DNA of 45,958 nt from Bacilli bacterium (GTDB lineage: Bacteria > Bacillota_I > Bacilli_A > RF39 > UBA660), in the NCBI GenBank assembly GCA_017940575.1, contig JAGAYJ010000014.1, positions 1-45,958 on the forward strand, given 5' to 3'. The translations under genes were made by a program, and so were the position numbers. The first letter of the stretch is position 1. Each line of letters begins with the position of its first letter. Positions 30,990 to 32,134 of the stretch are shown piece after piece. The notes beneath the pieces are model-generated. The model was not told the DNA's origin, made no database searches, and worked only from the letters and a program-made list of their open reading frames with translations.

Positions 30990-31132
30990 ACAAATAGAAA
31001 ACAATTGTTTTAATTTATTAAGTTTTATTAGTCAAAATAAATATTCAATTATAATTTTTTTGTTTTTTTTCAAAAAAAAGAAGGAAATTTGATTTTTTTA
31101 TCGAATGATATTAGTAGAAGGAGGTGAAAAAA

Positions 31133-31903
31133 ATGTATTATAAAAATCCAGGAACTGATAATGAGATTGAGTTTGCTGACAGTTTTAATAATAAACGCTT
31201 TTGTGATTTAAATATATTGCAGCAAGATTTTATTGAAGATTTATTTGGAAAAGTAAAAAAACTTAGCTATATTAGAGCATGGAAATGTAAATATAATTTT
31301 AAAACTGACATTTATATCAAGATAGATGACATTGTAAAAAGAGTCAGTATAAAAAAAGGAATTAATAATTCTGTTCATACTGAGCCAATTAGTGAGTTTA
31401 TTCATTTTTTAATAGAAAATAACATAAGCCAGAATCTCATTAATAGCTATTTAATGTATCATTATGCTGATGGAACTACAAACGGTAGTGGCGAAAAAAG
31501 ATTATCAGGCTTAGAATATAAAAAAAATCATCAATCCGAATTAGATAAAATAAATGAAGCGATTAATACAAAAGATATGTTAAATAAAATTGTAGATCGT
31601 TTTATATTAAAAGGAACAAATTCATATTCAAAAGTTGATGCACTTGTTTATGGAACAAAAGATGATTTTATATGGCTTATGAAAGATGAAATAATAGATA
31701 TAATAAATTCTAAAATAAACTATTATTCTACCGGCATACATTTTGGTCCACTCTTTTGTCAGCCAAAAGACAGATGCTTGAATTATAATCCAAAATATAA
31801 TAAAAATAGATTTCTAATACAAATTAAATGGTATTCTATATTTGATGATTATATTGAATATAAGAATACTAAATGCATGGAACAAGCACAGTATATTGAA
31901 TAA
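31133..31903 (+). CDS. Putative PD-(D/E)XK-type nuclease-fold protein
   Basis: About 256 residues from the ATG at 31133. A GTG nine bases earlier is part of the GGAGGTG ribosome binding site. Residues about 60-80 read KTDIYIKIDDIVKRVSIKKG. This matches the core of PD-(D/E)XK nucleases: an acidic residue, a beta hairpin, then (S/V)IKxG with the catalytic Lys, followed by NNSVHTEPISEFIHFL. Further on is a conserved-looking FIWLMKDEIIDIINS and a late Cys pair. It could be a restriction-like endonuclease acting alone; no methyltransferase lies next to it. It is a lone plus-strand gene, ends in a tRNA-Gly-like fragment and sits beside tRNA-Gly, which suggests acquisition by transfer. Confidence 0.6.
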   Translation: MYYKNPGTDNEIEFADSFNNKRFCDLNILQQDFIEDLFGKVKKLSYIRAWKCKYNFKTDIYIKIDDIVKRVSIKKGINNSVHTEPISEFIHFLIENNISQNLINSYLMYHYADGTTNGSGEKRLSGLEYKKNHQSELDKINEAINTKDMLNKIVDRFILKGTNSYSKVDALVYGTKDDFIWLMKDEIIDIINSKINYYSTGIHFGPLFCQPKDRCLNYNPKYNKNRFLIQIKWYSIFDDYIEYKNTKCMEQAQYIE

Positions 31904-31940
31904 GTGCCTTCCTATTTAAGCTCCTGTCGGGAGTTCAATA
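31901..31940 (+). repeat. Partial tRNA-Gly-like copy, inverted to the real tRNA gene
   Basis: Starting at the stop codon of the nuclease-like gene, the plus strand reads TAAGTGCCTTCC, five extra bases (TATTT), then AAGCTCCTGTCGGGAGTTC. The real tRNA-Gly on the minus strand reads TAAGAGCCTTCC directly joined to AAGCTCCTGACGGGAGTTC. That is one mismatch in each block across the anticodon arm, variable loop and T arm. The copy points toward the real gene (31987-32060), so the two form an inverted pair. It may be a remnant of integration at the tRNA gene or a tRNA-like 3' element of the transcript. Confidence 0.65.
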
Positions 31941-31943
31941 TAT

Positions 31944-31973
31944 AAAAAAGAACTCAAGTATTAAGCTTGAGTT
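31944..31973 (-). terminator. tRNA-Gly terminator between facing transcripts
   Basis: AACTCAAG (31951-31958) pairs with CTTGAGTT (31966-31973). A six-base A-run (31944-31949) gives T's for the minus-strand tRNA. The weaker TTTTAAT on the other side may also stop the nuclease-like gene transcript. Confidence 0.7.
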
Positions 31974-31986
31974 TTAATATTCAACA

Positions 31987-32060
31987 TGGAGCGGATGAGG
32001 AGAATCGAACTCCCGTCAGGAGCTTGGAAGGCTCTTATTCTACCATTAAACTACATCCGC
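31987..32060 (-). tRNA. tRNA-Gly (anticodon TCC)
   Basis: The acceptor arms GCGGATG and CATCCGC pair. The D arm has AATGGTA, the anticodon loop CTTCCAA gives TCC, the T arm is GGGAGTTCGATTCTCC and the CCA end is encoded. Total 74 bases. A second, partial copy lies just downstream on the opposite strand. Confidence 0.95.
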
Positions 32061-32134
32061 ATTTAGTAGGCACTTTTAATTATACTAGAATTTCATATAA
32101 TGTCAAGAGCCTTCCAAGAATTTTTTTAATTTTT

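Follow-up and report, generated by a model that had tools for sequence, protein, structure and literature searches.

An inverted partial tRNA-Gly copy beside a solitary AciI-related nuclease gene as a putative trace of insertion behind a tRNA terminator

The inverted tRNA-Gly copy and the empty site

The window (the whole 45,958-nucleotide stretch of Bacilli bacterium DNA analysed here) carries a short inverted piece of a tRNA-Gly gene at the 3′ end of a nuclease gene. Our preferred reading, which we hold with a little more confidence than doubt, is that this piece would be the decayed arm of a tRNA-Gly inverted duplication centred on the terminator hairpin, made when a mobile nuclease gene inserted directly behind the terminator.

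From direct sequence comparison, it is clear that the inverted partial copy is real. It occupies positions 31898–31939 on the plus strand and corresponds to positions 21–57 of the intact tRNA-Gly(TCC), which ARAGORN places at 31987–32060 on the minus strand. The copy reads GAATAAGTGCCTTCC-TATTT-AAGCTCCTGTCGGGAGTTCAAT and its template GAATAAGAGCCTTCC-AAGCTCCTGACGGGAGTTCGAT, the 5-base insertion TATTT lying 3′ of the anticodon. Block one carries a single mismatch, as the preliminary description had stated for both blocks, but block two carries two across its full 22 bases and only one if shortened. The nuclease stop codon TAA (31901–31903) does lie inside the copy, although the copy does not begin there, as had been proposed, but three bases earlier, taking in the last codon GAA as well. 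The distance of 47 bases previously given between the copy and the intact tRNA-Gly was found again. When a 22-mer was searched with up to 3 mismatches allowed, two sites were found in the window, the tRNA and the copy, with 0 expected in shuffles, and the strand carrying both, treated as DNA, folds well above shuffles (z = −8.7). The acceptor end and trailer of the tRNA are absent from the copy, as in the Gly-TCC group generally.

Between copy and tRNA lies the bidirectional intrinsic terminator of tRNA-Gly (31951–31973), recognized by sequence from its stem AACTCAAG/CTTGAGTT with A/T tracts outside, and we propose it as the fold-back point. A second inverted fragment, AAGAGCCTTCCAAG, is present on the far side of the tRNA from the copy (32105–32118, plus strand), where it matches the anticodon arm at 14 of 14 positions and overlaps the −35 box of the tRNA-Gly promoter. 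By inspection, this minus-strand promoter spans 32079–32106, with −35 TTGACA (32101–32106), −10 TATAAT (32079–32084) and a 16-bp spacer.

An empty site was found in a genome of the same genus (G002, locus L012). Its tRNA-Gly is identical (G002:C75:3297-3370, 100% match), its terminator resembles that of the window, and the genes to either side are the same, with a flanking identity of about 80%; it contains neither the nuclease gene nor either of the inverted fragments. Since both the copy and the gene are lacking there, together they represent an insertion of approximately 1 kb behind the terminator. Close relatives therefore differ in whether the gene occupies this defined position, and L068/L151 provide a further comparison of this kind. 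At the position matching 32105–32118, G002 has AAGCACCTTTTTTG, apparently the sequence from which a local template-switch conversion started; the 14-base fragment is probably the product of an event separate from that which made the main copy.

The solitary nuclease gene and its relation to AciI

The nuclease gene (31133–31903, plus strand) starts with ATG at 31133, or alternatively with GTG at 31124, and encodes 256 amino acids. Comparison of about 40 homologous 5′ flanks revealed, on the plus strand at 31072–31125, an A-tract, the motif AAGGAAATT (31081–31089) and the Shine-Dalgarno sequence GGAGGT (31120–31125); the A-tract and AAGGA(A/T)(A/T)TT recur ahead of many homologs, at a distance of about 50 bp, and this region is probably the promoter together with the left portion of the mobile unit. 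The inserted unit of about 1 kb has this one open reading frame and no integrase gene.

The protein matched the PADLOC profile REase_II (E=3.7e-13), as did 33 of the 38 family members, while no match was obtained to Pfam, NCBIfam or PHROGs profiles or to PDB sequences, nor in a related-locus search from the single protein. Its AF2 model has a pLDDT of 95.3, and Foldseek places this model with HinP1I (E=3e-8) and MspI (E=1e-4), so that the predicted fold is HinP1I/MspI-like PD-(D/E)XK. Residues D59, S72, K74 and H82 are invariant in 38 homologs. By tblastn, the protein corresponds to the N-terminal half of a 527-aa nuclease encoded on pAciIRM, the plasmid that carries the AciI system of Arthrobacter citreus; blastp against R.AciI gives E=3e-17 with 27% identity and 92% of the window protein aligned, the profile comparison gives E=6e-40, and a D...SxK...H.E motif is common to both by inspection. 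The window nuclease is therefore apparently a homolog of the N-terminal half of R.AciI, a single-chain Type IIT enzyme with two catalytic domains (PMC4081073).

In R.AciI a second catalytic half is present, and the enzyme is accompanied by a double methyltransferase as well as a control protein, whereas the tRNA-type genes stand without a partner half or an adjoining methyltransferase. Among 37 genomes, the partner half (R2) was found in G024 only, and in none of the 36 tRNA-type genomes, the window's own included. In a methyltransferase search covering the family PF00145 (C5 methyltransferase) alone, G000 (89% complete) gave no match, and 14 of 25 nuclease genomes scored above the cut-off, with the hit adjoining the nuclease in G024 only; G024 has a separate R1 beside R2 and two methyltransferases. 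The same arrangement of R1 and R2 beside two methyltransferases is present in the Terrisporobacter phage TPDSL_ph1 (27674–34390, L181), where R1 and R2 are annotated as hypothetical proteins. A 792-aa open frame was also observed in L202 (G514:C1:71940-73484), with two tandem R1-like domains, then an R2-like region, and an adjoining C5 methyltransferase.

It has been reported that Type IIT enzymes with one site lost become strand-specific nicking enzymes (PMC4081073). Since the tRNA-type protein is half of an AciI-type enzyme, it is perhaps, by analogy, a nickase, or else a homodimer whose specificity has changed. CCGC, the site of AciI, was considered as the target at tRNA-Gly ends and rejected, since many target tRNA-Gly genes contain neither CCGC nor GCGG.

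Copies across the host family and their decay

The gene had been called an orphan, which does not hold, for it is a member of a widespread AciI-related family with homologs in 51 of 243 genomes and 41 of 148 genera of the host family. Most of these homologs lie directly behind a tRNA-Gly gene, and the flanking genes differ among most loci. Decayed gene copies occur in G030, G135, G168, G192 and G257; together with the patchy spread over the genera, they fit a homing life cycle in which invasion would be followed by decay and loss.

A uniform scan of draft assemblies covered 113 tRNA-Gly loci, of which 29 are nuclease-adjacent, 34 belong to elements with a large serine recombinase (LSR) and 50 show neither; these loci are a non-random sample because they were gathered through nuclease searches and a tRNA query. 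An inverted copy is present at 27 of the 29 nuclease-adjacent loci versus 5 of the 50 loci without a detected element (p=7e-14). Absence of the fragment in relatives lacking the nuclease, which the preliminary description had made the point to check, is what we found at the same-genus site and at 45 of those 50 loci. Four of the five element-free loci with a copy (L066, L096, L111 and L163) are in nuclease-bearing genomes, and the fifth, L128, has an LSR-type leader. Among the loci with no adjacent nuclease, a copy was found at 6 of 13 when the genome has a nuclease elsewhere, compared with 7 of 71 otherwise (p=0.004). These figures bear on whether host replication errors alone might account for the copies, through template switching at tRNA terminator hairpins anywhere, with the nuclease merely settling in the same neutral spot. 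The fold-back geometry of the palindromes described below, the resemblance of the 14-bp fragment at 32105–32118 to a template-switch conversion and the copies in LSR elements would all agree with this; however, a general process would hit element-free terminators equally, and copies away from the nuclease would not be expected to be enriched in nuclease-bearing genomes. Because of the 27/29 versus 5/50 contrast, we consider host errors alone quite unlikely.

The 3′ ends of tRNA-Gly(TCC) genes are also a hot spot for LSR elements (L109, L120, L152, L153/L178, L174, L176/L179, L105, L119, L121, L138 and L158). These elements start with a ~95-aa open reading frame of unknown function, often behind a Shine-Dalgarno hairpin, and about a quarter of them have an anti-tRNA insertion after the terminator. 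Here the copy is a clean insertion of ~36 bp right behind the terminator T-tract, as seen by comparing L176/L017/L109/L120 with L138/L158/L105. Eight of the 34 LSR loci carry a copy without an adjacent nuclease, most of them in genomes that are nuclease-free by search, and this frequency does not differ significantly from that of the element-free loci (p=0.13). A nested insertion is seen in L178 (G184:C13:91000-101000), where an LSR element separates an intact tRNA-Gly from a remnant of a tRNA 3′ end beside the nuclease; L049, L055, L065, L071 and L075 apparently have similar remnants. Their shared target, and the nesting in G184, are what could suggest that the window fragment is left over from the attachment site of an ordinary integrase island inserted at tRNA-Gly. 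Like elements with tyrosine or large serine recombinases, the nuclease unit uses a tRNA as its landing site, but it has no integrase and no direct repeats, its repeat is inverted, and it sits behind the terminator, whereas the junction of LSR elements is at the 3′ end of the tRNA. This explanation was rejected on the inverted repeat and the integrase-free unit, and we regard it as exceedingly improbable.

Two further observations concern the region behind tRNA-Gly. In L177 (G086:C20:40000-46000), two tandem stretches of ~1.5 kb, about 72% identical, lie between a nuclease locus with a tRNA remnant and an intact tRNA-Gly. Many assemblies (G060, G099, G105, G110, G120, G128, G169, G199 and others) end about 65–105 bases behind the 3′ end of tRNA-Gly(TCC), which might reflect variation of the site among strains or difficulty in assembling it.

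The tRNA species beside the gene varies with the nuclease clade. In a tree of 43 nucleases, the genes beside tRNA-Gly(GCC) form one clade, the two beside tRNA-Ser form another, and the remainder are mostly beside tRNA-Gly(TCC). On the family tree the tRNA labels require 8 changes, compared with 16.2 when shuffled, a count made on the nuclease tree, to which vertical inheritance may contribute. Class-wide, where homologs adjoin tRNA-Met, Leu, Trp, Glu and Pro genes, the corresponding numbers are 15 and 35, again on the nuclease tree. Sequence comparison thus shows that the nuclease clade predicts the adjoining tRNA species, an indirect sign that the nuclease may determine where the gene inserts. 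Inverted copies were detected beside Leu, Trp, Met and Glu tRNAs at 10 of the 13 loci tested (shuffle p<=0.004), a set in which L204 and L205 are near-identical and the tRNA of L206 is 0.9 kb from the nuclease. No significant copy was found beside the nuclease-adjacent tRNA in L196, L203, L209 or the Ser-clade loci L081/L082.

When each copy is compared with the tRNAs of the group, its own adjoining tRNA matches best, or ties for best, in 27 of the 29 loci, showing at the sequence level that the inverted copies were templated by the local tRNA. In G187, however, the copy AATGGAAAAGACGGG matches the tRNA of the congener G026, CCAAGGAAAAGACGGG, and not its own tRNA, CCAAGGTTGAGACGGG. Because it retains the older anticodon-stem sequence, the copy has not been kept in step with the tRNA, and this fossil counters a continuous homogenization of the two. 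In the TCC group, tRNA positions 31–49 persist in most copies, the sequence fades to either side, and nothing is retained beyond 58; copies in the GCC group are longer, sometimes reaching the CCA end. Substitutions in the copies comprise C>T 15, G>A 11, A>G 3 and T>C 1. Indels are frequent in the copy core, and the core-to-core spacing ranges from about 66 to 104 bp, too variable for a fixed cut distance, which was dropped.

The pattern of decay is where the main rival to our preferred reading has to be weighed, namely that the copy is under selection as a working site. The nuclease would then bind tRNA and copy face to face, the paired sites would block self-cleavage (target immunity), and LSR elements would have gained a copy for the same protection. 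A core that persists in most TCC-group copies and the clean ~36-bp copies after the terminator in some LSR elements are consistent with this. A working site would hardly be expected, in contrast, to lose its match to its own tRNA, as in G187, to be missing from the Ser-clade and other loci, to collect indels in its core or to vary so much in spacing, and we think such a role unlikely.

The copy might instead be an RNA-level device, a tRNA-like segment shaping the nuclease mRNA at its 3′ end, or an antisense copy silencing read-through from the tRNA promoter into the gene. With the gene in its majority (convergent) orientation, the tRNA-sense half and the terminator would come last in the mRNA, and the strand forms a strong hairpin. 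The gene orientation is not conserved, however, being flipped in L005/L051, L070, L074, L076, L199, L200 and L210, with one clade flipped, so that the mRNAs of the flipped genes do not end in the tRNA-sense copy. The substitutions have no clear bias towards G-U pairs, and pairing is lost in G187, where the copy stands as a fossil beside a changed tRNA. The earlier suggestion that a tRNA-like 3′ end plays some part in the transcript is thus not supported, and we hold any RNA-level device to be very unlikely.

Terminator palindromes and a possible homing route

In four loci (L200, L206, L207 and L210), the 3′ arm of the terminator is followed by the reverse complement of the trailer and then by that of the tRNA, and the same terminator-trailer-tRNA palindrome is present in part in L088 and L053. 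The best-preserved loci are thus shown by their sequences to be palindromes with the terminator loop at the centre, the product expected of fold-back priming. Because the parts of the window copy nearest the centre are gone, the fold-back at the window locus is carried over from these relatives. Rearranged insertion or template switching, which the preliminary description had raised, is supported by the empty site without gene and fragment, the templating by the local tRNA and the terminator-centred palindromes.

In the mechanism that we propose, the nuclease would break the DNA at the terminator of the tRNA that it targets, or immediately past it. A 3′ end lying within the T-tract would fold back via the terminator hairpin, T-tract on A-tract, and a polymerase would extend it into the tRNA, creating the inverted copy, before the extended end switches template to the nuclease gene or is joined to it. 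The gene would spread in the manner of free-standing homing endonuclease genes, with the inverted copy as a decaying by-product. We put forward only tentatively, as a possibility suggested by the sequences, that this amounts to a new homing route, in which half of a Type IIT enzyme nicks or breaks behind its chosen tRNA terminator and the strand primes itself on the hairpin, is extended back through the tRNA and then takes the nuclease gene as template; terminators would thereby act as built-in insertion primers.

The closest precedent is SegB, a GIY-YIG enzyme of T-even phages, which the available part of PMC13096335 describes as free-standing, co-localized with tRNA genes, cutting within them and driving recombination there; how SegB avoids destroying its own genome is left open in that text. 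The window nuclease is likewise a free-standing gene co-localized with tRNA genes, but its family has a HinP1I/MspI-like predicted fold, resides in bacterial chromosomes and has each clade tied to one tRNA species; the inverted tRNA copy behind the terminator belongs to the window family, with none described for SegB in the same part of that paper. F-CphI, considered as the closest cyanophage homing enzyme, was dropped, since PMC6083498 assigns it an Endo VII motif. Mobile restriction-modification units that insert with a long target duplication, as covered in the available portions of PMC3031569 and PMC3874152, are likewise small moving restriction units, whereas the window family consists of a lone half-nuclease, is tRNA-targeted and has an inverted duplication. 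Fold-back inverted duplications after breaks are similarly hairpin-primed at a DNA end, but the cases in the accessible sections of PMC10622511 and PMC7467729 are yeast chromosome rearrangements, while those described here are short, recurrent, terminator-centred and beside a nuclease gene.

Taken together, in this group of bacteria with small genomes the nuclease has apparently inserted repeatedly behind tRNA genes. The family would consist of solitary restriction-type nucleases that are single-tRNA specialists, bridging restriction enzymes and homing endonucleases, and its mirrored tRNA snapshots may serve as a natural record of insertion repair. Two ideas are thereby made testable: that half of a restriction enzyme can turn into a selfish gene although no methyltransferase gives protection, and that intrinsic terminators can act as fold-back primers in bacteria.
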